Positions 3,474 through 62,903 of a DNA stretch of 64,000 bases are shown in pieces. The position numbers were made by a program, and so were the translations under genes. Position 1 is the stretch's first letter, and every line of letters starts with the position of its first letter. The stretch is from Eutreptiella sp. 'Long Island Sound 2002' (lineage: Eukaryota > Euglenozoa > Euglenophyceae > Eutreptiales > Eutreptiaceae), in assembly GCA_964036045.1 (NCBI GenBank), contig OZ038391.1:40041232-40105231 (forward strand), read 5' to 3'. Below the pieces are notes generated by a model that saw only the letters and a program-made list of their open reading frames with translations, was not told where the DNA came from and did no database searches.

Positions 3474-3653
3474 ATGGCCTGTGGCGTTACGCAGCGCAGG
3501 AAACTCAGCTCGTAGGTGTTGACATTTGCAGGCCTGCTTCTCGACTCAGGCAGCAACAGTTTGTTGCACAGAGACCAAAGTGTCCGGGTCAAAATCTCTG
3601 TCCAAGACCCACGCCCCAAAGGACGAATCAATGGGAGACCATGAGGCGCACTG

Positions 3654-4565
3654 CTAGCTATCATTGACAGCCCCTAGCGCTTGTGAGGTAAGGAAAGGGA
3701 CCGAAGTAGACCCAGAGCCATGGATAGCAGAAGCAACTGACGGCGTGGAAAACGGAATGACAGAGAGTGCATGCACCATCCAGCCAATCAGAGGCTCAGG
3801 CACAGCAAACTTCCGGAAATGCTTTTCACAAAATTCTTTCACCAAGCGCAGTACAGACTCGTCATATGAAGGGACACGGATTACGAACCGTCTCTTCAAG
3901 GATATGTCCCACTCTTTCTTAGCGGAACTTTTAGCAAGCCGGAACAAATGTTCAAAAATTGAGAACTCTACATGTTTGTCTACCTTGACCAAAAACAGCA
4001 GCAGCGAGGCACAGTCCAGCGCACTCGGATGGTCTAACAACCACAGGGCCTTCGCCTTCAATGACTTCCCCTCTGGTGTTTCACACGACTTAGTTACAAT
4101 CTCTTCCCATAGAATTCGGTCAATACCACCAAAAGGGGTAACCGCATTCACAGTCGGGGCATGCACACGTGCCCAGAACCTCTCTCGTTCACCAGCGCGT
4201 TCCGGGATCACCCTCTCAATGGCTAGCATAGTTGAGGTGTGCGGGCCTACCCTGGCAAAGATGCGCCCAATCGTTGGTCTTGCCCTGAGTTTCACCCTGG
4301 CAGGGGTGTTTCTACCTGATTTATGTGCATAGTGGTTACGAATCGACTTTCCTTTCTGTATATGCTCTTTAAAATGTTCAATGGGTGGCCTGATGCCATT
4401 AATTGCGCCCACCTGACCAATGTAGGTCAGATGGGGGCCACAAACAGCATAGATGAGACAGTCAGCAACCGTCAGATCGTGGTCAGACGGCAACGAGGCC
4501 AAACGTGCAATTCTGCGCAACTTACGATCAGGTGAGCTAGAGAGTAGAATGTTTGCTTCTCTCAA
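3654..4565 (-). pseudogene. GIY-YIG endonuclease segment
   Basis: Residues 37-50 give LIY, ten residues, then YIG, the defining pattern of the GIY-YIG nuclease fold, with Gly at residue 43 and 50. An Arg at 59 followed by EHFKEH (63-68), a Glu-rich helix around 117-128 (AIERVIPERAGERERF) and Asn at 140 fit the conserved Arg, His, Glu and Asn of the family. About 160 further residues lead toward the reverse transcriptase. It shares the frame of the RT segment, separated by TAG (3654-3656) and TGA (3546-3548). In retroelements this domain nicks target DNA for priming. Position before the RT is the permuted arrangement. Confidence 0.65.
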
Positions 4566-4568
4566 CGA

Positions 4569-24532: not shown

Positions 24533-24850
24533 ATGGGAAACGCGAATGATTCCTCGACAAACCACTACGCCAGCCAGATCCTCCACAACCGGTATAAGCT
24601 CGTGAAGGAGCTTGGCAGAGGTGGATTCACGGTCGCGTACGAGGCCCTCGATCTATGGCCCCCGCGATCGAGAGATGCCCGCGTCGTTGTGAAGATACTC
24701 TGGAACGCGCTGCCATTGTATGAAGAGTATTTCAATCGGGAGATTCACTTCCACCAACGCTACGGCGGCTACACCGAGGTTCCCGTGAAGACTGCGGCCT
24801 ATGTGGATCGCTTTTATGACGCGGATTTGCAGGCGCCGTGCTTTGTGCAG
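24533..24850 (+). CDS. Kinase exon 1: N-lobe
   Basis: The ATG at 24533 is preceded in frame by codons without another ATG. The start MGN is not followed by the Ser/Thr typical of myristoylation sites. The exon ends ...PCFVQ at CAG|GTGGCC; exon 2 continues EFIDGT, exactly the hinge position of kinases. Confidence 0.8.
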
Positions 24851-27800
24851 GTGGCCGTCAACCCTTCCGCCCAATGCAATCAGGCCTTTGAAGGGGGGCT
24901 ACAATGTTTCGCACCGTTAACCGCCACCAAGCGCAGTGTGTGAGGCGGTGTGGAAGGGACACCCCAGATATGATGTTCGCGACCACCCTGGACGCCCCCA
25001 TAGTCCCCAAACTCACATGTGGGGTTGCCACCCACCCTGGGACCCCCATGCCACATTGGAGTCTCATGGGAACCTGCGCCCAAACCCAAACCCAAGGCAC
25101 TTTCCGGGAAGCCGTCCATGAGCTTCTCCCTCCCACAGTGAATGGCCGAACAATTGACGCTTTCTTTCATGCAGTCGCACAATCTTGTTTTGTTTCTAAC
25201 CTGATGCCGAAATGCCGTGGAGATGGGGCAGGGATGGGGTGACTATAGGTGGGTGTATTGCAGCTGACTGTCTCCTCGACCATGAGTGCAGGGGCGTAAG
25301 CAAGAGGAAACACGTCTGCGTCATGACATTGCACTGCTGTCCTGTGTGGAACGACTGCGAAAAAAATGCTGCATGGTGAACATGGTAAGGGGATCTGAAC
25401 ACGAGAGATGCAACCACATGAAGCGGGGGGCCAACCAAAACTGGAGTGACCGTGAATTTTCAGTGCAGCACTCGCAACGCTATGATATACACAATTGCTT
25501 TAATTTTTGCGACTAGGCGGGCCGAAACTTGCTCTGCGGGGGGGGGGGGGGGGGGGGGCGGGCGTGCTCAGAAGGTGGGGGGGGGGGGGTTGGCAAAATG
25601 GGCTTCCGTGCCGGGACGCTTTGTTATGTGGTTTTGGCAGTTTTGGTGCAACAAAGACTGTCGTGGGCTGGCATGATACCCCCGCCGATGGTTGAGCGGA
25701 TAGTAGGCCTTTTTTTGTGAAAGGCCGGGGACCGGTAGCGTTGACATTCCACTCATTTCCAAGTGTATGAACCTCCTATAGGGGCAGCCATGGGAGACAG
25801 GGGAAAAGAAAAAACTGATGACCGGGGACCCCTGGGGCTCTCATCAGTTGAGGGTCGCGATGCCCAACCCTGTTATAAAGTGGGCTAAGCGAAATACACA
25901 CTCAGACCCCCACTTGTAAAGGTTGTCCCAGGGACCTCATATGAGGAATTCTGGAATTCTGAGCATGTGCATCTGTATGAAGTGCATTTCTCTATGCCTT
26001 TGAAGGAGAGAAACCTGATGCTCCAACACCGTTGGAATTTGAAACGTAGTGTTGAAAAAAAGTTGGCTGACAAGAACCGTGAGCCTGCAGTGTTGAATGC
26101 TTTGCGCCAAGACATACAAAAGGAAATTAGGGAAGCATCCATGATGCGACCTGTTCGTTCTGCCCTTTTGGTCGACCACAAAGGTGTGCCTTGTACTGCA
26201 CAACGTGCTGTACGTTTGCGCATTGAAAAAAAAACCTTGCCACAGGCTGATGGTCATTGGGTCACAGAATTGAACACTTTGTTGTCTCAGATTCCATGTC
26301 CTGAAGGGACAGTCACAGTTCAGGACCCCCAACCCAAAGCTCAAACTCCCAAAAAAAGGACACTGTGTGATTATTTCAGCGTACCTACTCACAGGACCCC
26401 CCCATTGAGTGGACAGCAGTTCTTTGCCTCTCCGACAAACCGCCACACTCCCCCATCAGGCAGCAACGCCGACCCCCCCCCCCCCCGCCCCAGGCAGAAA
26501 GCATAACTCCTGTGGTGGGTATTATGCCTGAACCATCGCCACAGTACTTGTCCCAGGAGGAAATTCTCATCCAGTGCGTCGAGTCGCTTGTCTCTGATGA
26601 AGGCATCAGTGCTACAGGTGCGCTGGATCACATCCTTCATGCTACCGCGTCTTCCACTTCCAGCTCCAACTCTAGCTCCAGCTCATCAGGTAGCGAGTCC
26701 TCCACAAGCAATAGTGACTCCAGCAGTGATTCCAGTGAGGACACAAGCTCTGATTCCAGCGACTCATCAGGGTCGGCTTCTGATTGAGACACCAATCTTC
26801 AGGGTACCATGGTTCGGCCTGGGTGGGGCGCTGCATGGCAGCCGGAACTGACCGGGGGTCATTGTACCCTTAAACAAAAGTACCACCCCCATTGGCACAA
26901 ACCCCAAAAACATGCTTCTGAGCCATCGACACACCACCCAAAAGTATCAGGAAGTACAAGGAACCCCCACTGTCCCCCGTTGTGAGCCTAGAAATCGTCC
27001 CGGCACGGCGACCAAGGAGGGGGGGGGGGTTGGGAAAATGGGCTTCTGTGCCATCTCCCCCCCGCAAACCAATTTTCTTCCCGCCCTGTTTTGAAATTTG
27101 AGTCATTTTGTGTTCCTGTTTTTTTTTTGTTGGGCGGGAATGAATCTTTTTTCGTATTGCACATTTTTTGCGGTGAAGGAAGTTTATATGCACACCCTAG
27201 CCTGGGACTACTGAGCTTTAAAAATTTTGAAGTTTGAACGCTCCGCAAAGATATGACTCGCACCCTCAGACGCACCCTTGGCTGCATCCTGGGCCAAACC
27301 TACACATCCTGAGCCACACCATCAGCCACATTCCCAGCCACATGGCTGATGACGTGGCCGAGGGTGGCTCTGGGTGAAACTGTCGTCGTGGTTCGGGAGG
27401 CGGCTGAGGGTATGGCTGAAGACATGGCTCCGGGTGCGGCTGAGGACTCAGCGTGTGGTGAGGAGAAGATGTGGCTGAGGATGTGGCTAAGAAGGGGGCT
27501 GAGGTCGTTCATAAAGATGTGGCTGAGGGTGTGGCAGAGAGTGTGGCTGAGGATACGAGTGGCTGCGGATGTGGCTCAGGTTGTGCCAGAAATGTGGCTG
27601 ACAAAGCGGCTTGCACTTTATTTTGGTGTGACGCCCATGGAGAGGACAGCAACAAAGATGTCCAGTTGGATCGGAATTTATGGGATCACCTGGCACCTGC
27701 CAACATTCCCTCTGAACCCCTTATTATCACAGCTGTAGGAGTCCCAAGCCCCCAGCCCACATAGGACCACTGCTGGGGTGGTGCGTAGGACAGAAACGGG

Positions 27801-30800
27801 CTTCACCGTTCAGGGTTTAAGTGGGGGCTGTTCCACAAAGGCTGGCTGGGTAACGTGCAGTACAACCTCACCCACACCCTCAACCATGCTGCCAACCTCA
27901 GCCACACCCTTGGCTGCACCATCGCCTGCGTCCTCAGCCACATGATCTACAAAAAGGGTGCCCATTTTTCTTGGGCAAGAAACCAATTTGGACAAAGGTT
28001 TTCGGCAAAGGTACGCAATCTGACCCAACAACATCCAGGCGCTTGATTTTGACAGGTTCCAGTTCTCGTCTGGTAAAATATTGTAGCCTCGATGGAGGAA
28101 CACCGTTTGGGACTGGGTGACACCATGCCAACTGGCGCTTGCTCTGTTATGTAGAGATTGTTTCCTCCGCTTCTCACGGGCAACGGCACAACGCAATTGT
28201 GCCCGAAGGGGCGTTGCCCCTGCAGCCGAGTCTTGCGTTGGGCCCCAATGCTGCAGACGGATGGTTGTCAGGTCACTTCCTGTGAATCTGACACCAACAG
28301 AACAGTCGAATGCAGGGAACAACCTCCGCCTCTTTGGGGCGTGGAGTGCTCATGTGGGGCAACTCCCCCTTGGTTTTTGTTGTGCACTGGCCGCCCAATC
28401 CCTGTGAACAATAGGTCGATGCGTCTTTTTGAGAGGCGCCCTCCCCCTCTGCGGTTTGGATCGGCGAAGAGGGGGAATGGTGGGTGCCAGGGAGGACTGA
28501 GTTCTATGGGCCGAGTGTCAAATGCGAAAAGCACCACAAGGACACCTTCTTAATGCGTTCCCTTTTGTTGGTCAAACAGTCAATGAGTGAATTTGTGTCT
28601 CCTTGGCCCAAACCCGCTCCTACCGCCGCTGCACCAAATGGCCGTGGGTCAGGGGCCCCCTGACGGTACTCCCCCTCCCCTCCCTCTCCCTCTCCCTCTA
28701 CCCCTTCCTGCCGCCCTTCCGTTCCCTCTGGCCCTCGCCCTCGCCCTCGCCTCCGCCTTCGCAGTCCCTTTCCCCCTTGCCATGCACTTTTCTGGAGGGA
28801 AATCCTCCAACTTGCTGTGATGCTGAGCGGTAAAGCATCTGAGCTGCTTCCCGTGCACCGGGGGTCAGCTGCATCGCTTTTTGCTTTCTTGCCTGGGCCC
28901 TAGAATTCGGGGGGATGGCCTAAAAAAGGCCCCTGGAGACCACAAGCCGGCACCGAAGGCACTGAATGTTTGTTTGCAGCATCCGAAAAAGGGCAGACTT
29001 TCGACCAATTTGTGGATGCCACAACATCCACCTAATCATTGTATTGTGGGACATGTTTCCTGGGGTCAGCCCCTGCACACACCAGCTCCATGAGCAGCCC
29101 TCGCAGCCCTTTTGGAAGAAGAGGTTCCCATAGCGGAGCTCTAAGTTCCCCGAATGCACAATCGAGCATGGCTGTGATCTGCTTGACACTCACTTCGGGC
29201 CATGGCCCAAATTCAAAAATCAAGCTCAGGCGAGGCTGCGAGGCCTAACCGGATGCAGCAACAGATGTGTGGCACATCATCTTCTGCTGATGAGCCTCAG
29301 AGTTCACTTCGAGTGAGGTCACAGGGTGTCTTGAATGTCAAAGGGCAGTCGGCAACATTGGGCTGTATCCTGGTTTGAAATAGAGATTCAGGCCGTCCGA
29401 CCAGGTGTCGTAAGACAGGAATTGCACCATGCACCGTCGGATCAAGGCTCCGCAAAACTGTCAGCCCAAGGGAGGAGAGGCGAGGGCGAGAGCGAGGACA
29501 AGGCGTATTGAGCCTTGGCTGAAGGAGAAGGGGAGGCATGTTGGGGGGGTGGGGGTATGAATGGCATGAGGGCATAAAAGTTCTCTGATGTAAGGGTTGC
29601 GACATCCTCAACTGCCAGCTTGAGGGAACTTGGAGCCCTTTCTCACAGGTAGGATCATAAAGGCCGAGAAGAATGGACCTGTTGATGCATCGGTGCTCTA
29701 CCCCTCATCTTTCTTCCCACCTCGAGCAATACGGACCTCACTATGCTTGCCCTCGTGCTCTTTATAGCCACCCCTCCGCCCCCTCCTGCATGCATCCACG
29801 GCCTTGTCCAATAGGAATTCATCGACGGCACAGTTTTGGTTGATATTGTGAAGCAGATGCCGACCTTCGCTGATGTCCATGCGCACGTTTTCCTGAACAA
29901 ATTCTTGCGGCTCCTTGTGTACCTGCACAAGAACGGCATCGTCCACCGCGACATCAAGCCGCACAACATTATGCAGGACAACGATGGGCACTACTGGCTC
30001 ATCGACTTCGGCATTTGCACCACCGTTGATGTGGGCAGCCAACCCATCCAAACCAACGACTCCCACACTGGCTGTACCTCCAGTCCTCGTTCCACGACTA
30101 ACCCTGACCCGAGTGCCCACCGGGAGCCTGGCCTGCATCCAACCTCAATGGGGATCTCAACCCCGTTCCACGGATCGAGCCACGACGCCACCACTATTGG
30201 CACCATGGGATACATGGCCCCAGAAGCCTTTACAGGTGTTCAGTCAATGGATTAGGGGGATCACCAGGGTGCTATTGGAGCTGTCTGAACCAAAATCATG
30301 ACAATGCTGAAACCTGGCAATCAGTGGCCATTTTCGACCCTGTCTAAGTCGTACAATATTGCGTTGGGGGCGTGTTGCGCGCTGCGCACGCACCGTGCAC
30401 GCACCGTGCACAAAGTTTGTACAGGACCATACCAAAGCTGCATAGTGTTGCCTAGTACCAGTAACAATGAGCCTTGTTATGCATTTATATGAGTTGCTTG
30501 CATGCTTTGCCCTCATATCTAGTGCATTTGTGTGTGTTGTTGTGCATCCTTTCCGATAGTTTCCCACAGAATTTGGATTTGGATTCCGAGTACGAACTAT
30601 GGTGATACATTCGGGTCCCTTTCCTGGTTGGGGATATTGACCAGCCTACGAATTTAGGCATTCCCGAATGACACAAATCTGTACGCCTATCTTCGAGATC
30701 TGCCACAACCCTCCACATTTCCTTTATGCATGTGGATGTTTCAAGGACGATGAAGTCCTGAGCTGCAGCAGTGAACATCTTGGTCTTCTGACAACCAGAA

Positions 30801-31190
30801 GGGACCCTGATGGTCCACCAAGGGGTACTGAAACCCCAAAAACCAGGTTGGATATCTTCAGGTTTGCAGAAAATGTACATAGCATGTTGCAGGAGCAAAC
30901 AACCACTACATCAACACCGAGCACCAAAGCTTTCTGTCTGTATAGGTAAGAATATCGCCAATTGTAGCAAAAACCCTCAATTTCCCCCTGTCACATGCGT
31001 GCAGTGTGCACGCTGTGCCAGGACACCCCCGTTGACTGCCATGCCAATTGGCAAGTTTCTCTAACTCGATTTCAAGAACGTAGCCCAGGGCTTACCACAA
31101 TTGGCAACTCAAATGGGAGTGACTTATTACCTGGCTCATAGTAGCCGCAGAGGTAGCGGCAACAGCAGCAGCAGCGGCGGCGGCGGCGGC

Positions 31191-31244
<54 letters not shown>

Positions 31245-34200
31245 GGTGCTAATTCTTGATGAATGATTGTAACGGCATGAACGAAACAAGGACACAATTT
31301 GGTCCTGTTCCTCATGCTGCCCCTTCTCCTCCTCTGCCCCCTCCGCCTCCTGCTTCTGCGCCTCCTGATTCTCAGACTCCTCCTCTTCTACCTGGTCGCT
31401 CCCCGCGCCCTCCAAACTACGTTGGCCCAAATTTGAGCCACCACAAAGCGAGGGTGCTGGTGCTGGCCATCGGCTGCTTTCCCATTTCTGGGGACCAGGA
31501 AGTTGGCCCAAACAATGCCTGGTCAGAGTATGAGAAATCTGTGCAATCATACACAAATGCCCAAGGACAGTGATGACAGCGGATTCAACCCATGCGGCAT
31601 TGCATTTGGGCCCAACACATGCTAACCCCACAGCTGTCCTTCCCCTAGTTTTCCAAAACAAACAATCACACAGATTAAAATGGCATGTACTCTGGTAGCC
31701 TTCCTCTCAACAGATGGCAGAACAAACATGGCAACTTGGGTGTTGCGCAACCACTACTGGGGTGGCTCTAATTTCATTAGAAACCCCTTTTCATGACAAT
31801 TTCAAAAAGGTATATCATACCCCCTGCCCCTGGACAATAGTTTCCCTACAGGCCCACTCACTGATAGGTTGAATTTCCAGTTGCCACGGGACCCAGATCC
31901 CTGTTCACCGGCTGTGGCTTGAGCTGTGATGACCATGTCTTGGCTTTAAGGCAATTGTAGTAGGTGGTCTGGGGCACTCACTGGACAAGATCTCCTAAAC
32001 GTCATTTTGTCGTGGGTAGCTCTAGCATATTTGGATTTTCCACACTAATATGCGCGATTCCTCCCAATTCTCGCTTTTGGCTGAAGTTACCCTGTGGGCA
32101 ATATGAAAACCTTCCCCTTGACCTAGACCTTGCTTTCGCCCATTGTTGGCTCCTTTTCCTATGTTCCGTTAGATTGATGTTGGCCCACACGGACCCCGAC
32201 ACATTACACTGACACTGACACTGACACTGACACTGACTGTGGATATCCTTCCTCAACTGACCCACCCCCCTGACTTTTGGGGAGATCTAATCACCAGGTC
32301 CGTTGGCTCTGACTTTTGGTCTATGTGTTGCTCCGTGCTCTCGCCTGCAACCGTTCCTAGGCCTGGGCGTCCTACCCTAAATGGTGCACCCGCTTGTTGA
32401 TCGGGAGATCTAACTTTCAGGTTCTCCAGCACTTACTGGGCTTTTCCATCTATGCCCACACCCTCTCTATTTTCCCCCTCGCTGTGCACCATGGTTGTTG
32501 TTCTGTTTGTGGTTGGTGTGCCGTTCTGCGCTGAGATCCATGCTAGTCTGTTTGGTTGTTTGTGCCTTGTTTGCTCTACTTTGCATTGCCATCTGGGGGC
32601 TGAAAGGGTTACATGTGGAGTGTGGCCCACAGAACGTTCCCCACAAAACACAGTGATCCTGTGTGGTGTGCTACCGCCAGTACATGCAGAACATACCCTT
32701 TCCCGCCTGATGAGTGACCTCTTCTTCCCCTTCTCATTTGCACCAAAAAATCAGAAAGGTGTTTTGTGGACGGAATAGATCTTTTGCCCGCTAAAACACC
32801 CAAGGGTGCCTGTTGCATACAACGTCCAAGGGGGGCTGGCCCAAAGAACCAGGGGCCCTATTGCTACGTTTGGGATTCACTGCTGCTATGTGCCCGTGCA
32901 ATGACTATTTCCGGGAGTGCCAGTGAGGTACTGGGGGGCAGCACCATCGCTGCAAGCAGTGGTGCCGAGGCAACCACTCCTGCTCCCGGTCCCTCCTCCT
33001 CCTCCTCCTCCTCCTCCTCCTCCTCTTCCTCTTCCTCCTCTTCCTCCTCCTCCTCCTCTTCCTCCTTCTACTCCTTTTTCCACTCCTTCGCCTCAGGTCA
33101 GAGCTGCCCCGCTAGCGATCTGTACGCCCTCGGCTGGACGGTGCTTTTCCTGCTGCGGCAGGGCGCGGAGGCCCCTGCCTTCCTGCCCAACGACCATGCG
33201 CTGGAGCAGCTGGTGCTTGGCAATTTACCGCACATTCAGTCTCCGCAGCTCCGCAGGGTCATCGTTAAGCTCTGCAAGCGCCGCCTGGCAGATCGCTACC
33301 CGACGGCGGAGGCAGCGCTGCAGGTACTGTGCCCCGCCCGCAGTCGCCGGAGCCTTGAATGCGAGTAGTATTTTGCATATCTCTCGGTGCCTACGCTGTT
33401 ACTGCCAACTTTGTGCGTTTTTGGGGAGCACCGCCTCTGTTGCCTCGTTTGTGCCCCGTGAGTGTCCAATAGGGGTGGGTACATGGGGTACATTCGGAAA
33501 GCCCTTGAAAAGGGTTGTTTGGAACACCCTGGGTCTGCATGCTGTACTGACAACATCTTTGAGATTTTCGTCCGTTTTGGACGGTTCATGTGTTGCTTGC
33601 TGCCTCTTTTTGTCAACGGGCAGTCATGTCTACATGTAAACCAGAAACCTGTGTTGATCCGAGACGAAAAAGTTAAGTGGCTGGATTTGGCAGCACACCT
33701 GACCCAGTGAACCTGCAGCCCCATGCTGGCTACGTATGGTTGACATCAGGTTATAGTGAGGCCATTCCCTGGCGCAAGGTTCGGTTGACCAAACAGCGAA
33801 ATGTCGACCTGACAACCGATGGCCTGTGGGCTATGCCTCTTAACGAAGGTTGGGTGCCAGTGAAAGGACGGAGGTTGCAGGATTGGGAAAAATTGAAGAA
33901 ATATGTCCCTGTCCACAAACAAGGGGATGTCTGCCCGAATGGGGTCCCAGCCCTGCCTGAAAAAGGCAATGCAGATGATGACGCTGATTCAGAATAAAGA
34001 TGATTCACCGGTGCAGTGCCATGTTTGTGTGCACCGTCCAATGTCTTGCACTGTCCTGAAAAATGTGACCCCCCCCCAACCCACACACTTCTGAAATGGC
34101 CTTTTCTCACATATTCCAAAAAATATACACAAACCCCCCCCCCATGTGATGATATGTTTGCACATCAAAGCAAAACTTGTGAAAAATCCCAAAAAGTGCC

Positions 34201-41000: not shown

Positions 41001-42400
41001 TCCCATCTTCTTCTAAGCATACAGGACAAAAATACGAAAAACATTGAGTATATCATGGGGACAAGCTATCTTCTACTCTTCCGTCTAAAGGCGTTCAAGT
41101 TCTTCAAGGTCTGTGAACAATGCATGCGTGAGCTCATCATCTTTCACTCACAAAGCAACTGCAGCAGCAGCGCCCCGCCCTCTCTTGTGGCAATTTTCCC
41201 ATGCTGCATGGAGGTGTCATGAATGCCATCCACATTGCTCCAATACAAAATGTTACCTTGATTTGGACGCCTGCACTCTCAAATGTTGCCAAGTGGATTT
41301 GGTCAGACCCAGGCCACCTACCTCCAACCCTAGCCTTGTTGGTCAGTGCTTCAAGCATTGTCATGTTAGGCTAATTACGAGTGCGTCACCCTGTCAAACA
41401 CCAAATGGCAATCTCTAGGCTCACTCTGCAAGAATTTGCAATGGCAACATGCCACATCTCTTTCTGTTGAATGTGTCTTCTCAAAAATTATGCCACTGAC
41501 AAGCAAGGGTACAAAAGAATCCATCGAACCATCTGTGGCAATTTGTGCTGACCAGTCTAGCCTGAATTGCAATGGTGTGTATTCTGTCCGGCAGGCTCAA
41601 TTGACAGCTCCCCACATCCAGGTTGAAAATGGGTTCCTGAAACACTCGACTTAGGCACACTATGCCTTTTCTGCTTGATTTAATGCCGGCAAACGCTCCC
41701 TCAAGGTGTGAGACGGCCCTCAGCCACGCCCTTTACCTTCGTTGTTGAACGATGGGAAGCCGACGTGTTCCATGGAAATCTGCCACCTTAATGAGCTGCC
41801 AGTGAAGTTTGCCAGGCAGTCAAATGTTCACCATGCAAGCTCAGCTTGTGTAGTGTGTGCATGTGTGAGCATGCCTTTAATTCTTCAACGCAACCCCTAT
41901 GTGCCTCTGAATCGTAAGCTCAAGGGCTATATCCATGGAACACATTGGCCATACATTCTCGAGTGCTGCTTGATTTACGGCTGCCAGTTTTGACCTGTAC
42001 ATGCTAGAGTTTGGTCTTGTGTTTTTGATGTTGGTCTTCATAAAGTCACGCCAATACGTGTGTGTGTGCGCGCGCGCTGTCTGCAACCCCCCCCGACATG
42101 TCGTTGTTGCATCTGTTGTAGCGACACAGGGTTGGCCGAGTGAGAGTCAGTATGTTGCACAAGGCAGTGCAATGCAGGTGCAGTGTTTGTGCATGCATGC
42201 AGTGTGAAGTGACAGGATTGTCCAAGCAGGGGAACCCATCAGACTATGATTTTGGGGCTCAGCCAGGTACTTCATTGGTGCCTGGATAAGGATCATGGGA
42301 AACAGAGATGTAAGTCGATTGAGGTCCGTGGATCGGGGGGTTGACTTTTGTCTCCTTGTGCTACAGCCCACTCTTGGCGATTGAAGTGTGTTGTGTCCAG

Positions 42401-42745
42401 ATGCAGCCACCTACTGCCCGCAGCCCGATCGTTGTGGCTGCAACGTTCACTGCCACTCCGTTGTTGGAGATCTTCGACTGGTGGCAGCAGCGCGTGGCGT
42501 TGCCTGAGTACGTCCTGAGGATTGCGGACTACAATTCCGTGTTCCCACAGTTACTGCGGCCCGACAGCGATTTTCGTGCCACAGGCCCCTCGGGCTTAAA
42601 TGTGGTGTTGTTCCGCTTCGAGGACTGGGTGCGGGACGTCCGTGCTGGGGACGCTTGGTGCAATGTTGTTACAAGAACGGCGCAAGATTTGGTGGCAAGT
42701 ATCCATAAGTACGCTGGTTCCTGCCAGGCCCCGCTGTTGGTACAG
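42401..42745 (+). CDS. FkbH-like exon 1: N-terminal domain, first part
   Basis: It encodes 115 residues beginning MQPPTARSPIVVAATFTATP. This is the usual first strand of the FkbH N-terminal domain, so little is missing upstream. It ends PLLVQ at ACAG|GTGGTG, joining ICRPSP of exon 2, the expected strand in relatives. Confidence 0.75.
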
Positions 42746-45700
42746 GTGGTGATTGTGCGTGTTGTAGATTGTGAGCAGAGCGGGTGGAAAATTGCTCCAA
42801 GGGAAGGAGGGGTCGTATGAGCTCCTTTTTCGAGAGTCCCCCCCCCCCCCCCCCAGGGGGCAGGGGCTCTTCTGTCCGGCCAGTACGGGGGCAGACAGTC
42901 GGCATGGGACCGACATGGGGACCAAAAACTAAAAGAATGCTGACAGTTGACCGCCAACGTGGGTCCATTGAGGATGCCGGTGGCTGAACAGTGGCCGCCG
43001 GGAGGTCGACAGCCAATCCGTCCCTGAGGACGACCACCAAGTGACTGCCCCCCTCCTGCCCCCCCCCTGCAGTGGTGACGGTGGGGCTGGCCAGACGACA
43101 GGGTTGCGTGGAAGCGGGTTGCATGCACCACACAACCGTACTGTGACACCTTTGCCCACAACCGGAACTGCAGTGTACCCTCCTTCCTTGCGGTGTGATT
43201 TGTGGTGGGACCCGGCCACAAAGTGGTCCGGTATGCCACCACACACACGCCCGGCAAGCCCGGCCCGGGTTTATCCATCACACAGTAGGGCCCACCCTCA
43301 TCTGATGTGACTCAGTCGCGCCCACTCTGGGTGTGCAGACGCTCGCAAGTAGGCTGGTAACGGCACTCTGCAGGCTTCAGAACTGGGCGAGGTGGCCATG
43401 ACCAGGTGTGGGGTGAGGGTGGGAGGGGGCCTGCCCAGCGGAGGAGTCAGGGATCCTTTTTTCATGACCGGCAGAGCCCCCCCCCCCCCACCACGTCGAT
43501 GTGGACAAGAATGCTGTTGTATGTTGAGCAATGCCACTCATCGAACTCTCAAGGCCATGGAAGGTACGCGTTGAGCTGTTGAGCTGCTGCTGAGCTGCAA
43601 AGGACACCCAAACACCAGACACCACCAGCGGGCACAAGGCAACATGCAAGAAATTCAATCACAGGCACACAAAAGTGTGGCAACAGCAGAGGCCTGGCCA
43701 CTATTAAAGCACTGCCTTGCTGGTGTTGGGCAAATTTTGGCGACCGTACATGTTTTGTCCACCATTTTTGAAGAACTGGCACAGAATTTGTCACGTTAGA
43801 ATGATTCCCCAGCGGGGAGAGGGGTCGTATGAGCCCCCCGGGCCCTGGGGGGAGGGGGTGGCTGGAAAGGGGGCTCTTCTGTCAGGGCCTTGATTTTGGC
43901 CGTTTTGTTGACTGCAAATGACATGTTTTGTAGTGGCAATGCGTGGCAGCACCGCTGCAGACTGCCGTCCCACTCTTTGCTTTGAATGTGCGTTGTGGTC
44001 CTGCTACAGATCTGCAGGCCCTCCCCTGCATGGGAGGCGGATGACGCCAAGACGGCGTTGCTGCAGACGGTGACCGGCAGTTTGATGCGGGATGTGGGGG
44101 CATTGCCGAACGTGCTCCTCAGCGACTGGACGACCATCGACGCCCTGTACGGCCCGTCCATCGGCCCGTACTACGACGCCGACACAGACAGAGTCGGGCA
44201 TCTGCCATATACTGAGACATATTACGCGGCGCTCGCCACGTTCGTGGTCCGAGCGGTATTCAGCCGCCACCACCGCAACAATTTCAAGGTACCCGGTCGG
44301 TGTTAGTGCTTGGCCCATCGGTGTCGTGCGGTGTGCAAGTGCTGTGCAAGTACCTCCTCACGCCGCTGACCCGCCTCTTAGGCGGGGGCCTCTTGGTTTG
44401 TAGGACCGCATCTTCGGATTTGCACCTCCTCTCCCGGAGCCAATAGCATGTGACCGGGGGAGGGGGGATTAGGCCACAACGTCAAGGAAACACGGGCCGG
44501 CCAACACACGTTTGACGGCCGTCGCGTTGTTTCCTTTTGGAACCCTCTTTGGGAATGCCGTTTACGCAGTGCAAAGTTTTATACCCGAACCCTAGCCATG
44601 ATGCCCCGCCAGGGCGTGTGTTGTTTCCCCATAAAAAAGACAGTGCTGCCTTACACTGACAGCCGTGCTTCCCAAGTCTGACAGTGAGACTGCTCCGAAG
44701 GTTGTGCTCCCTCGACGTGCCCCGGTCCGAAGGCAATTTTTGCAGTGCTGGCCCATTCTGAAGACAGTGCGGAAGGCGACAAGGCTCGAAAGGCAAATGT
44801 GCCACTACGACACATGATTTTCTCACGAGCAATCCCTCGAGGGTAAGGCCCTCTAGTGCAAGGCTCCCGAAGATGCAAGTCAGGGCAGCTGTGGCATGTG
44901 TGGCCCGGCCACCAGCCGGCTTTTGCCCAGTGGTGAGGCACAGGCGGGTCCCCTCGTTGTACACACGCGCAAGTGCGTTGGCTACGCCGTGCAGGAAGCG
45001 CATGTGTTTCGCTCCGCTGAGCGCCACACCTGCACCCTCGGATACTCCTGCTGCCTCCACTCGCTACACTCGCCCACTTAGAACGTCAGATCACATGGAC
45101 GTGAGCCCATTGTATTTGGAAAGAGGGGCTGGGTCATGCTATTTGAGACTCGCGTCTGCGCATGACAGAACTCGCCTGAGGTTTCACATGGTTCTGCACA
45201 GCCTGCACTGGGGCTCGAATATCTGGCGCCCTGCTCACAGTTGCCGTTTTGTCTACTTCGGCCTCTTGTTTCCCAGTGCGGCCTGAGGTATGGTGTGGGG
45301 GGCCGAATTTCCATTGTGGCACTGCGCCATCGCCAGCACCGCTTCACACGTGCCCGCACCCCAATTTTGACAATCTTCAGGTGTTTGTGACTGACTGCGA
45401 CAATACTCTCTGGAAGGGGACCGTGAGCGAGGCCCGTATCACCGATCTGGAGGTCACTGGGGTGCAGCGCGAGCTCCAGAGCCGGCTGGTTCGGCTCCAG
45501 AGCATCGGGCGCCTGGTGTGCCTGGCGAGCAAGAACGACGCAGCGGATGTCGCCCGGGTGTTCGAGCAGCGGTCTGACATGGAGCTCACGCGGGCCCACA
45601 TTGCGGCCTCCGAAGTGAACTGGGCCCCAAAGGCTGAGAACCTGCAGGCGCTAAGCGAGCGGCTGGGGCTGGCCCTGCGCAACTTCGTCTTCATCGACGA

Positions 45701-48700
45701 CAACCCGGGGGAGATTCTCGGCGTGCGGACGCTGTTGCCGGAGGTGGTGTCCCTGCACTTACCCTGCGGCTCGCACGATGCAGAAGCGGCTGCCGCGCAT
45801 GCGCTGCGACACCACTGGGCGTTGGACAGTTTCGACGCTGGGATTTTGGGCGTGGTGGTACCCGCGGATCGGATTCCGAGGCCCTATGCAGTGGGGCCGG
45901 GTGCGGCTCTTACGCAAGAGGATACGCTGCGTACGCGATTCTATCAGGACAACGCGGCCCGGGAGCAGTTGCGGGCGACGGGGTTGTCGTTTCGCGAGTT
46001 TCGGCGTGCACTGGGGGTGGAGATCGATGTGCACGACATGGAGTCGGCGGAGGTTGCGCGCGCGGCGCAGCTTTCGCAGCGCGTGAACCAGTTCAATTCC
46101 ACCACCGTACGGCGCACGCAGGAGGAGGTTGCGGACTGGGCCTCACGGGGCGGACATGGCGTGCTGTGCTGCTGCGTTACGGACCGCTTCGGCGATTATG
46201 GACTCGTTGCTGCCGCGTTTTGGCACGAAAGCGGCAGCGCGGCGAGCTGCGCGGGGTCAGACTGTCAAGTGTTCGGCAGCGGGGCTCAGCGCAACGGTGG
46301 TACCAGCGTTGACGCCGATACGGGGCGCGCGAGTGTTGATGCTCCTGCCACACCGCCCATACTGACCGCGGACTGCGATGCGGGGCCGGCGGCCCTTTAC
46401 GTTGACGCATTACTCGTGAGCTGCCGTGTGTTTGACCGCGGGGTCGAGCACGCGTTGCTGCAGCGTCTCGCAGGGCGCGCCCGGGACCGGGGCCTGTCGG
46501 CGGTGCGGGTGCCGTTCCGGCGGTCCGCCAGGAACGCGAAGGTCGCGGCTTTTCTGCACGAAATTGCGCGCGCGGCGGGGCCAAGTTCTGGAGCCGACGG
46601 TGCAGGGCCTGCGGGGTACTGCGCGGACAGTGCGGGTGCAGGTGCATGTGCGAGTGCCGCTGCAGGTCTGCAGGAGCACTCATTCCTCTTCTCTGCCGAG
46701 GCCCTGTTGAATGCGACGCTCGAGGACCTGGAACCAGCTCCTGCAGCTGCGGAGGTGGACGTGCACGTTACAAAGCGCAGTGCAGGATCTGCGCAGGACG
46801 AGGCCGGGGCTGGGGCCGAGGCTGGGGCCGGGGCTGGGGCTCAAGCAGCAGCTCCGGCCGTCTCGTCTGCTGCTGCGCTGCCGCCGTGTTCTGACGACGG
46901 GTTCTGGCGGCAGGTCGTGGGGGAGTGGTCGGACATGGCAGCGCTGGTGCTGTGCCTCCGCGGGCCCTGCCGCGCCGCGGCCGCCGCCGCACCGCCCCCC
47001 CCGGACCCCTCTGACCCGGCGCTTGTGCTGCTGTGCCTCCGGCGGTACGCGTCGGACGTGGTGGGCCACCCGCTGTCCGCCGCAGACGACGGCCGCGCGC
47101 TGGACGAGCTCGGGATGACGTCGGTCGGGGCTGTGCGCTTCTTGGCGCTGCTGCAGGGCCTGTGCCGTGCGTGGGACGTGCCGGCCCAACTGCCCGCCAC
47201 TCTGTTCCTGCAGCACCGGACGCTGCGCAGCATCGCGGCGTTCCTCGGGGCCCTTTGCACCGCCGCCCCGGGCCCTCCCCGGGGCCCACGGCACGAGCCA
47301 TCACCCCGCCCGCCGGAGTTTGCCGCCGTTTTGCAGGCGGTTGAGGAGGTGGTGTGCGCAACCGTGTGTAACCGCCAGCGGTTCGACGCCCGCCTGCCCC
47401 TCGTCGATTTGGGGCTCGACGAGATGTCCGCCGTCGCGCTCCGCGACACCCTCGGGACGCAGTTCGCGGGGCTGGCCTTGCCCGAGACCTGGGCCTTCGA
47501 TTTCCTGACGCCCGAGGCCATCGCGCAGCGGGTCCTCGACGGCCGCGGCGCCGCGGCCCCGGGCCCGGGGGCGAGGCAACCGGACGACACAGGGCCACCG
47601 CCGGCGATGCGCCCCGGGGGAGGGTCCGCCGCCGCGATGGCGGCAGGTGCGGTCGGGCACGGGGCGTTGGGCCGCTCGGGGCTCGACGATCGCGAAGGGG
47701 GCGGTGCCGGCGGCGGTGGCCCGTTCCCCGGCCCCGACGCCAATGCGGACTGCCCGGCGGCCCGGTCGGCGCCGCCCGCTCTGTGTCGCGGTACCGACGC
47801 GTCGGAGGTCGTGCCGAGGGCCGTGCCCGACGCGTCCCGCGCCGCCACCTCCTCCGCCCACAGCGCCGCGCGCCGCAGCGCCCCCGGGGGCGGGTACCGG
47901 GTCCCGGAAGACCCCAACGACCCCTCGACGGGGCTGTATGCCGCCAAAACGGGGCATCTGGAGCGGCTGCGGGCGCTGATCGCCGGTGGCTGGGCCTTTG
48001 GGAGCACGGCGGACAGGCACGGGCTGGACGCGCTGGCGTGGGCCGCGGGGTGCGGGCACCGGGAGGCCGTGGCGGTGCTGCTGGAGGCCGGAGCGGCGGT
48101 GGACCGGCGGAACAAGGAGGGCCGCACGGCGCTGATGTGGGCGTGCCGAAACGGGCATCTGGAGGTCGTGCGGCTGCTGGTGCGGCACGGGGCGGACGTG
48201 CGGGCCACCAACAAGAAGGGCATCAACTGCCTGCACTGGGCGGTGTGGGGCGGGGCCCGGCACGTGGCCGCGTGGCTGATGGAGCAGGTGCGTGTGTAGT
48301 GGGGCCACCCAGCGTCACGTGGGAGGCGTTTTGGGGGGGGGGGGGGGGGGTGGGCTACTGCTGTTTGACGTGATGAAGTCTTTGCTCGGGTACCTGGTGG
48401 CATGTCCCGCTGCCTTGTGCGGGCCAGCGCATAGTACATGGGACCGTAGACGTAGTGGACAAGTGTCGCCCATCTGCCGTCTTGTTCGCTGCAGTGAAAG
48501 GCGCCTGTGACATGTCACTGAAGATCTCTTCTTTCTTTGCATTTGTCGTGTGACGGCTGCTCGCCTGCGCAGAGTCGTGCACACGCATCTCTTTCCCGAA
48601 GCGGGGCAGCAGGCGAAGATTGTGCCTCGAGGCACAATTTGAGCCGCCAGGCGCTGATTGCGCCTCGAGGCGATTGCCACGCGCGACTGTGGGCCGTATT

Positions 48701-50889
48701 TGAAGTGTCAGATTCGCGTTTTTATTTTCGTTTCCTTTCGAATTGAAGGCCGCAAAGGCCGGCCGATTTGATCGCCTGAAATGAAAAATGGCGGAAGAGG
48801 TGGGGCATTGGCATATCAGAGTGCAGCAGGATAACCCCTTCACCTGCAAGACAGAGCCTCTCAGCCGGCTGCAGCTCCCCCGGGCCTCCTCTCGTCATCG
48901 GGTACACGCCGGCCGAGGGGAACTCCCCTCTTAAGTGGCACTCTGAAGGCGGGGGGCTCATGCACAGCGCTCTTTTTTCTCTTGGCTCAGAAACTGCTCC
49001 ACACTCTGGGCCATCAGGGCCTGCCTTCAGGATTGGTGCAATTCGCTTGTGAAGGACAGCTTCGAGCCCAGGGCCAGCACCCTCATTTTGTGGTGGCGTA
49101 AGTTTGGGCCGACTGGGGGGTGTCTGTGGGTGGGCCCAGGCTCAGAGCTTCACTTAAGAACTCACCACCGGTGGGGGATGGGGGGTCCTAGACCACCCCC
49201 ACTTCACCCCCCCTTCCGCCTGTAATTGATTGGGGCAAAGTTTTCTGGGCCTTTTGGCCGACGAAAAATTGTCGCCGGCGCCTTTGGCGCAGGTCTATTT
49301 GGAGTGCAATTGTTTCTTCAGCGCCTTTGGCCAGTTCAGGGGGAAGGGGGTGAGGACCCCCCCTCCCCTCTTCAGTGAAGCTCTGCCCAGGCCTGTGGAG
49401 GCACACCGCCAACCTGCGCAGAATCGGCGCCCTAGACTTTAAATGAGGAAGGGGGGGGGGGGTGTTGAATCATGGATTATCACGGGCACTCAGTTCAGGC
49501 CCAGGCCCAATTTGCAGGGCAGAGAGGGGGATTGATGGGGTCAACGGGGCCCAAAAGGACGTCAACACCGATGGGGACATTGCGATTGTCACGGGAAATC
49601 GGATTAGGGATCAGTTTTAGGGCGAAGATCAGGCCCACTTTTCGGGGCAGGGGTCCGCAACACGCCAGGCTTCCAGGGCAGCGCACAAGCTGAGGTTACG
49701 AGAGAATGCGTCGCGTGTGAGCGGGGCACCAGGAAGAACAGCGCAAGAGCATGGCCAGTGCGGAGAGAAAGACGGTGGGGGCGGTGGGCGGAAACGGGAA
49801 AAAGGTACGACTGACAAGGTGATGGGGAGAGCGTCGCCGAGGATGCGAGAAGCAATGGACAGCAGCGGGGCATGGGGTAGTGCAAGCAAAACGTAGGAAA
49901 AATGTAGGAAGCATTCAACACAAAGGACCCAACACAGCCCATGTTCCTGAGGATCACAGCCCTGAGGTCAAGGAAGAGCACCCATCAGGGCAAGATTTCG
50001 AGTCCACAGATCTCGAGGGTCTGCACTGCAACAGCAATTGACAGAAAAGGGTTATGCAGACTAGCTAACTCCTCCGTGATAAAACCATAAACTTGCTAAC
50101 CGCAGGACGATTGGTGTACAATGACATGTATGGGCAGGCCAAGAAAATTCAACCATAACCAGATGGGTAGAGGGCATCAAATGGAGCATGCAAGGCGTGA
50201 AAAGGAGCATACCAAAATGGAAGAATTACGTTTAACAATGGAGCAAGGTCCAAAATCTAAGATTTGAGAGCCACAGGGGGCAACTCATGAAGTCACCATG
50301 ACAGAGCCCCAACCGCGGCATGCAGGGCCATTTTGCCCCACCCCACACATACCTCCACTTGCTCTCCGATTGGCCCTACCATGGTCACAAGCCTTGGAAT
50401 GCAGTCTTGCAGGGACAATGCCAGACGGGCAGGGAGGGCGAAGTCCTGCTGCACTGATGCCGGTGTCGCTTCTCTGTACTCACTGCACCGCATCAGGGGC
50501 TGGAACTCGAGTCCGTGAACAACAGCGGCTGCAACACCGCCATCTGGGGGGCCACCGAGGGAAGCCTTGCGCTGTGCCAGTGGCTCTTGGGCCGAGGGGC
50601 GGACTTCACACACGTCAATCACTTCGGGCATGGCCCCGTGGTCAAGGCAGCGTGGCGCGGGAATACTCCGCTGCTCCGCTGGCTCTTAGGGTTGGGGGGG
50701 GTAGTCGACCAGGTGTTCATGACGGATGCGGATGGGAAGCTGCCGGTGGAACTGGCGGAGCTGCGCGGGCACACGGACGCGGCCCAGTACCTGCGGGACG
50801 TCATGCAGCAGCATCCACAGGCGGTGCGGCCCGCGCCTGCCATTGCTCTGCAACGGAGGGAAGAGCCGGACTGCAGCGTCCGGCCGTAG
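42401..50889 (+). CDS. FkbH-like HAD/acyltransferase - carrier protein - ankyrin fusion, four exons
   Basis: Exons 42401-42745, 44010-44288, 45381-48287 and 50512-50889 join in phase 0 to about 1,302 residues. Residues 1-208 match the N-terminal half of FkbH-type proteins (VVAATFTATPLLEIFDWW; DADTDRVGHLPYT). The HAD core has VTDCDNTLW with Asp213/Asp215, ASKND, NWAPKAENL and FVFIDDNP. The acetyltransferase-like half follows (TDRFGDYGLV; LLVSCRVFDRGVEHALL). A carrier domain has DELGMTSVGA with Ser789; a second has DLGLDEMSA with Glu889 where the phosphopantetheine serine belongs. Gly/Ala-rich linkers precede ankyrin repeats from about residue 1053. Family knowledge: FkbH proteins transfer a glyceryl unit from 1,3-bisphosphoglycerate to a carrier protein. 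Coding GC is far above the introns. Whether ATG 42401 is the start is uncertain because it abuts an acceptor-like CCAG. Confidence 0.85.
42746..44009 (+). other. FkbH-like gene intron 1 (1,264 bases)
   Basis: It runs from GTGGTG to GCTACAG. Two direct repeats containing GGGGTCGTATGAGC and, after a C- or G-rich run, GGGGCTCTTCTGTC lie at about 42805-42880 and 43820-43887. C runs at 42840-42854 and 43480-43489 keep spurious frames open. Confidence 0.75.
44010..44288 (+). CDS. FkbH-like exon 2: N-terminal domain, second part
   Basis: It encodes 93 residues with SDWTTIDALYG and DADTDRVGHLPYTETYYAAL, both hallmarks of the segment before the HAD core, and ends HHRNNFK at AAG|GTACCC directly before the catalytic strand of exon 3. 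Confidence 0.85.
44289..45380 (+). other. FkbH-like gene intron 2 (1,092 bases)
   Basis: It runs from GTACCC to AATCTTCAG. No feature is supported inside; a minus frame at 44482-45060 is open but shows no domain. Confidence 0.75.
45381..48287 (+). CDS. FkbH-like exon 3: HAD core, acyltransferase half, two carrier domains, first ankyrins
   Basis: A single 969-codon exon of high GC. Order: HAD catalytic core (first residue VFVTDCDNTLW), acetyltransferase-like domain, a Gly/Ala/Glu-rich linker (GAGAEAGAGAGAQAAAPA), carrier 1 around 47025-47260, carrier 2 around 47330-47545, a second Gly/Pro/Ala linker, then ankyrin repeats (KTGHLERLRALIAGG, GCGHREAVAVLLEAGA, NGHLEVVRLLVRHGAD). Large open frames on the opposite strand (46841-48439, 47301-48308) are shadows caused by GC-rich codon use. 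The exon ends at GAGCAG|GTGCGT inside the ankyrin array. Confidence 0.9.
47025..47260 (+). other. Carrier protein domain 1 with phosphopantetheine serine
   Basis: The domain encodes DDGRALDELGMTSVGAVRFL; the codon TCG at 47121-47123 (Ser789) is at the 4'-phosphopantetheine attachment position of the LGxxS motif. Flanking helices are of normal length for an acyl carrier protein, so it is a plausible acceptor of the FkbH product in cis. Confidence 0.75.
47330..47545 (+). other. Carrier-like domain 2 lacking the serine
   Basis: The domain encodes LPLVDLGLDEMSAVALRDTL, which aligns with the consensus LGLDSLSAVELR except that GAG at 47421-47423 (Glu889) replaces the modified Ser. The fold pattern is kept (following helix and LPETWAFDFLTPEAIA), so it is likely a structural or regulatory pseudo-carrier. 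Confidence 0.7.
48288..50511 (+). other. FkbH-like gene intron 3 (2,224 bases)
   Basis: It runs from GTGCGT to AACTCGAG. It contains G runs near 48333 and 49450, and a short repeat of GCGCCTCGAGGC-type palindromes near 48625-48675. The acceptor is not preceded by a strong pyrimidine tract, so the exact junction is less sure than the others. Confidence 0.65.
50512..50889 (+). CDS. FkbH-like exon 4: last ankyrins and C-terminus
   Basis: It encodes SVNNSGCNTAIWGATEGSLA and further ankyrins (HGPVVKAAWRGNTPLLRWLL, DADGKLPVELAELRGHTDAA) and a 30-residue basic/acidic tail, ending TAG at 50887-50889. Reading frame and repeat register continue from exon 3. Confidence 0.8.
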   Translation, partial: SVNNSGCNTAIWGATEGSLALCQWLLGRGADFTHVNHFGHGPVVKAAWRGNTPLLRWLLGLGGVVDQVFMTDADGKLPVELAELRGHTDAAQYLRDVMQQHPQAVRPAPAIALQRREEPDCSVRP

Positions 50890-61486: not shown

Positions 61487-62903
61487 ATGCAGCGCTTGCT
61501 CACAAAGTGAGGCCAGTCCACGAACGATGCCCTTGCTGCAGTCGTAGAGGCTCAGAGCAAGAAGGTGTCCTGCTGTTCTAAGGCCCGTCAATACAAGAGT
61601 TCAGCGAGGAAGGACTTGGCTAGAGTGGGCGGCGGCACAAAAGTCCCTTTGTGTGCAACTGTTGCTGAAAGGTAATTACAACCACGTTGTGCTGCGTTAC
61701 GGGTGTCGAGCGCCGAACCTTACCACGCTTCGCACCACGGCTGGCAAGGTGTAGGAGGGTGAGCCACTGCAAGGGTACGGCACCAACTCGGTTCTCAGCC
61801 GCACAGAGGAGGAGAAGATTCTGAAGTTCATCAAAGAGCTGAAGTATGAGGCTGCCGTGATTGACCTGGACACCATTGCGGCGCTTCGAAGAGCAGTCAC
61901 GGAGAGGTCCCCCGGGCCTGGTCTTGTTCCTGTTTTGGACCGCCAATGGGCTGCAAACTTCCGTCGCAGGCACAAGATGGGTTGTCTGAAGAAGATCACG
62001 ACGGAGCGACTGCCTTCTACAGTGTCTGACTTAGTTCTCGACAACAAATGGAGAGGTGAATTCTTGGACCTCGTTGAGCAGCCTCAAAAGTATGGTGTGC
62101 GTATCCCTGAAGGTGAACCCTAGTCGCTGCCGGCGTGGGCGCAGTTGGGCTTGGACGAGACGCCCCTCCAGTACGCCCCCAAGTTGCGCGGAGGGTATGC
62201 AACCGGAGAAAAAGAGGTCAGACACTACAGCAGCGCTGACAAGCGACAGGCCACGGCCGCGCCTGTGGTCAACCGTGAAGGCATTGTAAAAGTACTACAA
62301 GTGTTGCACAGAGGAAAGACAAGTCGCTGCCATGCGCGACTCGATGTGCCTCACGGCCTGCTATCCTACATGCAAGAAGACCACGCGGAGAAGAAGTGTC
62401 AGACTGGCGAAACGTTCAAACGCTTGATGATCAAGGTCGACACTGAAGTGGCAAAGAACAGACGCGACCATGGCGTCGCGCAGAAGTACCCGTGTGTTGT
62501 CATCATGCACTGGGTCGGAAGCCATCTCAACGACGACGAGTTGAAGCGCGTCGACGACGCTGAAATAGAGTTGGCTAACTTATACTCTTTTGTGGCGCCG
62601 CCACAGATGTATGTTTTCTTTGGCCGCGCTCGTCGCAGCCATGTTAGCAATGTTGGCGATCAGGTCATCAATCCAGGCATGAGAGCATGGTTGCGCGACA
62701 GACTGAAGCGTCGCCACATTGACCATTGCCTGAAGATCCACGATGGACTGCTGCCAAAGCACTCCAAGCTGGATAGCACGGAGGGTACGATGAAGGCGCT
62801 CCTTGTAAGTTGGCTTATTCAATGGGCTGCATCCCCTTTGACAACCACACACGTCCTCGGCAGCTGGAACATGGTGTTTATAGAGGTGCCAGTGACAGAA
62901 TGA
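61487..62903 (+). pseudogene. pogo/Tigger-like DDE transposase, broken
   Basis: The first part (from about 61510) resembles an HTH segment (TNDALAAVVEAQSKK). After frame disruption near 61670-61750 a single frame runs to the end: TEEEKILKFIKEL, RQWAANFRRRHKMG, TERLPSTVSDLVLDNKWR, then TAG at 62121-62123, then GLDETPLQYAP, KRQATAAPVV, LQVLHRGKTSRCH, VVIMHWVGSHL and NVGDQVINPGMRAW. These match the order of pogo/Tigger-type (DDE_1) transposases. The Asp expected before W-V-G-S-H appears as His. Because the frame is the same on both sides of the TAG, a single C-to-T change could explain it. The copy is inactive on several counts. Acidic frame 62938-63147 may be its C-terminal tail. Confidence 0.65.

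Follow-up and report, generated by a model that had tools for sequence, protein, structure and literature searches.

The gene and its product

The window analysed here is a 64,000-nucleotide stretch of the genome of the euglenid Eutreptiella sp. 'Long Island Sound 2002' (contig OZ038391.1; C14:40041232-40105231 in our contig numbering; genome of 2.28 Gb in 2205 contigs). On its forward strand, positions 42401-50889 hold a four-exon gene with a predicted product of 1307 residues, in which an FkbH enzyme domain, two carrier domains and an ankyrin cassette are joined in one chain. We argue below that this protein may supply an FkbH-derived unit in trans to a biosynthetic assembly line, and that its cassette belongs to a family on which enzyme heads have been exchanged. 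The features of the gene are as follows.

42401..42745, + strand: exon 1 (residues 1-115), opening portion of the N-terminal region found ahead of the HAD domain in FkbH-like proteins (reading frame, splice sites, alignment with a paralogue on contig C1 and with bacterial FkbH proteins)
44010..44288, + strand: exon 2 (residues 116-208), remainder of the N-terminal region (reading frame, splice sites, alignment)
45381..48287, + strand: exon 3 (residues 209-1177), complete FkbH domain, both carriers and the first ankyrin repeats (profiles, AlphaFold2 model)
45381..45767, + strand: HAD-IIIC half of the FkbH domain, with D213, D215, S258, K292, D314 and D315 (TIGR01686, TIGR01681, alignment, match to 3slr)
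45924..46592, + strand: C-terminal half of the FkbH domain, with motifs NQFN, DRFGDYG and SCRV, the last containing C556, and an internal low-complexity insert (TIGR01686 stretches, model confidence, alignment)
47037..47246, + strand: carrier 1 (PP-binding), with serine S789 at 47121-47123 in the motif GMTSV (PF00550, alignment, four predicted helices)
47349..47561, + strand: carrier 2, a putative pseudo-carrier, with E889 at 47421-47423 in place of the serine, motif GLDEM (second PF00550 stretch, alignment, lower-confidence helices)
47931..48287, + strand: part of the ankyrin cassette within exon 3 (residues 1059-1177; Pfam, cassette search, AlphaFold2)
50497..50889, + strand: exon 4, remainder of the ankyrin cassette, C terminus and stop codon (reading frame, splice sites, cassette search)

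All introns are of the GT-AG type and in phase 0 (1264, 1092 and 2209 bases), and GC content is 0.70-0.83 at third codon positions in the exons versus 0.57-0.59 overall in the introns. The C1 paralogue (C1:158.2 Mb) is a single intronless frame of 1324 residues with the same domain order. It aligns unbroken across all three exon joins, the sole gap at most 18 residues from any join being 2 residues long and lying 9 residues before the first, and identities over the four exons are 38/107, 31/92, 371/850 and 63/124 aligned residues. Because a protein with equal domain order in one frame aligns through them, the joins are supported. The introns, and a location on a contig of 59.6 Mb within a genome of 2.28 Gb, show that the gene is eukaryotic, in agreement with a preliminary description of this DNA that had argued against bacterial contamination. 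That description had also reported five intact FkbH/HAD segments spread over spliced exons; the segments are all present, between residues 212 and 484, but every one lies in exon 3, and only residues 1-208 and the last ankyrin part are encoded elsewhere. An AG dinucleotide stands directly before the start codon (window 42380-42401) and may be a spliced-leader acceptor.

The FkbH domain and the carriers

Profile searches of the window protein with NCBIfam and Pfam, proposed earlier as a check, recover every part of this build far beyond chance: FkbH (TIGR01686) at 234.7 bits against a cut-off of 146.65, HAD-IIIC (TIGR01681) at 50.6 bits against 35.75, PP-binding (PF00550) at 46.5 bits against 20.8, with the best stretch at residues 761-830 and two stretches at E <= 1, and ankyrin families over their cut-offs, led by PF12796 at 107.3 bits. 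The same tables contain no ketosynthase, acyltransferase, adenylation or condensation domain, bearing out the earlier statement that enzyme, carriers and ankyrin platform form one protein without a ketosynthase.

The HAD catalytic set (DxD, S, K and DD) is complete. Of 56 aligned rows, 55 retain D213, D215, S258, K292 and D314, and the last has a gap; D315 is kept in 54/56 and C214 of the DCD motif in 46/56. C556 is present in all 56 rows, and we would guess that it is the cysteine that holds the acyl group; it lies in the C-terminal half of the domain, which we take to be GNAT-like. In an AlphaFold2 model of exon 3 the predicted local distance difference test (pLDDT) score is ~96 for the HAD half and mostly ~90 or more for the second half outside its insert, and Foldseek places the HAD protein 3slr among the best matches (E = 4.1e-8).

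The preliminary description had spoken of carrier domains. Both are indeed present, but the protein does not have two working carriers: carrier 2 has glutamate (E889) at the position of the phosphopantetheine serine, and so carrier 1 is probably the only one that can be loaded. The four two-carrier proteins available (window, C1 paralogue, P0155 and P0240; protein identifiers are ours) all keep the serine of carrier 1 and have all lost that of carrier 2, which is Glu in the window, C1 and P0240 and Ala in P0155; the carriers of P0240 were recognised through alignment, without a Pfam match. Since the loss is shared with C1, P0155 and P0240, carrier 2 appears to be a long-standing pseudo-carrier and not a recent fault. 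The structural models run parallel, with pLDDT of ~90 for carrier 1, ~53-83 for carrier 2 and below 40 for linkers in the window protein, and ~90 and ~46-63 for the two carriers of P0155, whose ankyrins are mostly at 90-98. As to origins, a weak carrier tree groups carrier 2 of the window and C1 with adenylation-type carriers (support 84/30), and profile comparison, which offers only a hint, puts carrier 2 nearest to adenylation-type carriers (score 39.1) and carrier 1 nearest to bacterial FkbH carriers (40.3).

Relatives with the same build

We searched with the window protein (best 120 of 240), the C-terminal part of P0001 (best 120 of 650) and P0155 (best 120 of 365), each search scoring only the 8000 candidates with the most common words. 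Among the matches listed, FkbH occurs together with ankyrins in P0001, P0155, P0240, P0241, P0242 and P0326 only (TIGR01686 scores of 239.4, 205.9, 170.4, 214.5, 205.2 and 58.2 bits), above the cut-off in five of the six and below it in P0326, which is cut at its N terminus. P0001 was considered as an orthologue from an independent species and rejected, as it is a mechanical frame of the C1 paralogue from the same genome. The EukProt transcript P0155 has FkbH, two carriers and ankyrins in the order of the window protein, and P0240 comes from ENA. P0242, from Prorocentrum cordatum, has FkbH, one carrier and ankyrins. Carriers are single in P0241, P0242 and P0326, score over the Pfam cut-off and have the serine; P0241 and P0326 are called dinoflagellate for their similarity to P0242 (56 and 46%), not from their records. 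The domain order thus recurs in relatives, as the preliminary description had suggested checking, in full in the C1 paralogue and the EukProt transcript and with one carrier in Prorocentrum cordatum. For a single origin of the eukaryotic FkbH domains, an approximately unbiased (AU) test on 17 rows gives p = 0.21; P0155 and P0240 are long branches.

FkbH had been said to act normally with a separate or adjacent carrier. As worded this is not supported, FkbH-carrier fusions being common in bacteria: PF00550 is present in 120/120 matches listed for the window protein (best 120 of 240), a set that the query's own carriers may favour. The window protein shares the FkbH domain and its catalytic residues with the bacterial glyceryl transferase/phosphatases that bear a carrier (TIGR01686) but ends in ankyrins, whereas the bacterial matches listed end in a carrier, a thioesterase, or non-ribosomal peptide synthetase (NRPS), polyketide synthase (PKS) or FkbM domains. 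A bacterial origin of the whole build was also considered and rejected. Scanning with the cassette found 29 loci in prokaryote genomes, at 26-46% identity, and 4 viral loci, and FkbH is absent from all 33 (best E 0.27 and 0.72); in the C1 paralogue, used as positive control, the same scan found FkbH and carrier 2 and missed carrier 1, so that its negative for carriers is weak.

One ankyrin cassette with different enzyme heads

The window ankyrins are modelled at pLDDT ~96, and designed ankyrins are among their best Foldseek matches (E = 3.6e-8). As a query against its own genome the cassette gives 236 matches, and among the best 150 of 883 candidates C12:10865129 and C9:17505341 rank next after the window and C1. 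The C12 frame (P0357) carries an NRPS-type adenylation domain (TIGR01733 at 291.4 bits, under the whole-protein cut-off of 317.4; AMP-binding at 207.8), a segment resembling a carrier (16.9 bits, below the cut-off of 20.8; motif GLDSL) and ankyrins, and is 53-54% identical over the two best stretches to EG_transcript_2372 of Euglena gracilis (P0224). The part of the C9 gene that was read, from the carrier tail onward, holds the carrier tail and ankyrins. In P0146 a fatty-acid-ligase-like head is attached to the cassette.

Enzyme-linked cassettes, including that of the window, form one clade in three trees (support 100/99 to 100/100). These were built against 16 generic ankyrins, against 8 generic and 4 own-genome ankyrins, and, without C9 (10 members), against 7 and 4; the first two exclude 83 internal residues of C9 that may represent an unspliced intron. 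Generic ankyrins were restricted to their best BLAST stretches, and head groups were assigned after the BLAST identities and before the trees. Grouping the FkbH-headed cassettes as one clade gives AU p values of 3.8e-8, 1.2e-10 and 8.3e-8 in the three trees in order, and grouping the ligase-headed cassettes gives 4.3e-8, 8.1e-6 and 7.0e-7. FkbH-headed and ligase-headed members interleave, and the starred branches force at least two head changes. Because members with these two heads interleave within one clade, the trees point to head exchange on a shared cassette; a swap of ankyrins instead would leave an equal trace, and ancient paralogy without exchange would not. For instance, the cassette of C12 shares 55% identity with that of the FkbH protein P0241 and 37% with the window cassette. 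Relative to the window, the cassette is closer than the FkbH core in P0155 (53 versus 33%), P0240 (50 versus 41%) and C1 (56 versus 48%).

From dinoflagellates, trans-acting PKS/NRPS domains fused to ankyrins are already known (passages of PMC6361889, PMC7159223 and PMC4445524). Like the window protein, the trans-acting domains described there, including acyltransferases, combine one biosynthetic domain with ankyrins; those passages name acyltransferases and PKS/NRPS domains generally and do not mention FkbH, a carrier pair or a head-exchanged cassette. P0224 and P0357 likewise have a C-terminal cassette of the window's clade, preceded by a serine carrier motif, but carry an adenylation head instead of FkbH and a single carrier-like segment, under the Pfam cut-off in P0357 and unseen by Pfam in P0224. 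The new part, judged from the protein comparisons, appears to be that adenylation-headed and acyl-ligase-headed proteins bear the same ankyrin cassette as an FkbH protein. Within the open-licence PubMed Central literature we found no FkbH-ankyrin fusion, nothing joining FkbH with dinoflagellate or with euglenid, and nothing joining ankyrin repeat, phosphopantetheine and dinoflagellate; what pairs FkbH with ankyrin there concerns, by title, cyanobacterial symbionts, and what pairs FkbH-like with algae concerns cyanobacteria.

FkbH and polyketide synthase genes in the genome

FkbH matches occur at three places in the genome: the window, C1 and a third gene of several exons at C4:177562438-177567290, continuing to ~177.572 Mb. 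None falls inside a PKS frame, so any FkbH-derived unit that a PKS of this cell might use would have to arrive in trans. Among the best 150 of 247 candidates for carrier matches, open frames reach 44,620 residues (C21:9063880-9197739, - strand), 16,441 (C3) and 14,181 (C7). The longest is close in size to PKZILLA-1, reportedly the largest published algal PKS. The longest frame and another of 11,573 residues open with winged-helix and methyltransferase domains of the AprA type, and PKS domains come next. Frames of 11,534 and 11,573 residues at C11:63.95-63.98 Mb and C21:25.73-25.77 Mb have equal carrier scores and are apparently near-identical copies of one PKS.

A candidate trans-acting loader

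We favour, at a probability of about 0.5, the reading that the protein is a trans-acting loader that would load carrier 1 with a glyceryl-type unit and dock to an assembly line through its ankyrins. By analogy with bacterial systems, the FkbH part would take an acyl group from a phosphorylated three-carbon acid, which in bacteria is 1,3-bisphosphoglycerate, hold it as an enzyme thioester and hand on the dephosphorylated unit, within the one chain, to the phosphopantetheine of carrier 1. Carrier 2, not chargeable, would be retained as a structural or spacing element. The cassette would dock the loaded protein on a partner common to other loaders of equal build. The simplest such partner would be an assembly line for polyketides or polyketide-peptides, and it would receive the unit as a starter or, after oxidation, as a hydroxymalonyl-type extender. 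Passages of PMC7489565 and PMC5355916 describe bacterial FkbH-like proteins that make glyceryl-ACP (acyl carrier protein) for tetronates, methoxymalonyl-ACP and hydroxymalonyl-ACP. As described there, these pathways begin with the FkbH step proposed here. Their ACP is a separate protein and their dehydrogenases are clustered, whereas the carriers of the window protein are fused.

Several results weigh against this reading. The nearest carrier match on the contig lies ~7 Mb off (best 150 of 247), so no PKS gene is near the window; at C4 the family profile detects the FkbH part only over 60 kb, without carrier or ankyrin; Foldseek and Pfam identify ankyrins and not their binding partner; in the dinoflagellate-type proteins the cassette is conserved no better than the enzyme (40-42 versus 41%); and the carrier 1 motif GMTS departs from the usual G(G/L)(D/H)S.

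The lack of a PKS neighbour would suit an alternative that we regard as possible though doubtful, in which the three-carbon unit goes to a lipid, sugar, amino compound or small molecule outside any PKS and the ankyrins serve to position the enzyme within the cell. Receivers do vary, as bacterial FkbH-carrier proteins among the matches listed are also fused to a thioesterase or FkbM methyltransferase. Against this stand the many giant PKS frames of the genome and the NRPS-type adenylation heads on an equal cassette, which fit assembly-line supply. Less likely still, the ankyrins could be a generic dimerisation or localisation arm with no dedicated partner, ankyrin fusion being common in ankyrin-rich algae. 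Such an arm would accord with the 236 own-genome cassette matches and with accounts of dinoflagellates, in which HEAT, ankyrin or PPR repeats are frequent fusion partners of trans-acting PKS/NRPS domains (PMC6361889) and Gambierdiscus trans-acyltransferase contigs have upstream ankyrins (PMC7159223, PMC4445524), but the 11 enzyme-linked cassettes separate at 100/100 from the 4 own-genome and 8 other ankyrins. The dead carrier 2 might suggest a former loader that has become inactive or regulatory, but this is improbable: the catalytic residues and the carrier 1 serine are retained, the full order is present in two paralogues, and a relative, P0155, is seen as a transcript. A wrong gene model, with adjoining genes joined by eye across long introns, is scarcely credible, because the C1 paralogue carries the full order in one open frame and P0155 in one transcript-derived protein.

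One may tentatively go further, to an idea that we hold with some doubt: a single carrier-ankyrin chassis in euglenids and dinoflagellates whose heads (FkbH, NRPS adenylation, acyl ligase) have been exchanged in evolution and which delivers different units to giant assembly lines via a single conserved docking site, with the FkbH version as the first eukaryotic supply of glyceryl- or hydroxymalonyl-type units. A concrete product candidate may be found in the Euglena euglenatides. Passages of PMC11703798 give euglenatide B a hydroxyl on carbon 19 (C19), adjoining the carboxyl carbon C18, and an amino group on C20, and from the shifts listed there its methoxy carbon is most simply placed at C24. 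The alpha-hydroxyl at C19 of the polyketide part may be where a hydroxymalonyl unit would be expected; a hydroxylase would serve equally. No FkbH of Euglena gracilis was seen among our matches. The same source calls the nematode nemamides similar to euglenatides, and the portion of PMC8363725 available on nemamides contains no passage on a hydroxymalonyl-type unit.

The supply of unusual starter and extender units to very large algal PKSs is little understood, and a free-standing loader that brings its own carrier and has a conserved arm for docking would give a direct experimental handle, the cassette being usable as bait and the carrier readable by mass spectrometry. Head exchange on one arm, if true, would show how eukaryotes build natural-product pathways without gene clusters, and a conserved arm with varied heads suggests an interchangeable module that supplies natural-product assembly lines. 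A 2017 paper (PMC5355916) confines hydroxymalonyl-ACP to some bacteria; a eukaryotic FkbH system would render that limit testable.

Other features of the window and genome

Outside the gene, a Pfam scan of ten window frames gave protein kinase as its sole match. It confirms window 29815-30252 within a set of protein kinase-like exons at 24485-33365 (+ strand) whose remainder was judged by eye. Also by eye, and without a Pfam match, mobile-element-like frames resembling a reverse transcriptase with GIY-YIG lie at 1722-4568 (- strand), and a transposase-like mobile-element frame lies at 61755-62900 (+ strand). The 20 kb upstream of the window hold frames that resemble, by eye only, a voltage-gated ion channel. 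In the genome, PF02429, which bears on a dinoflagellate host, has no match, in a search that was also silent in every control genome and so by itself says little. The flagellar rod family PF05149, which we take to be typical of Euglenozoa and which, with the genome size and the Euglena-like proteins of C12 and C9, makes a euglenid host likely, has 39 genome matches, including four over the full length (360-363 bits).

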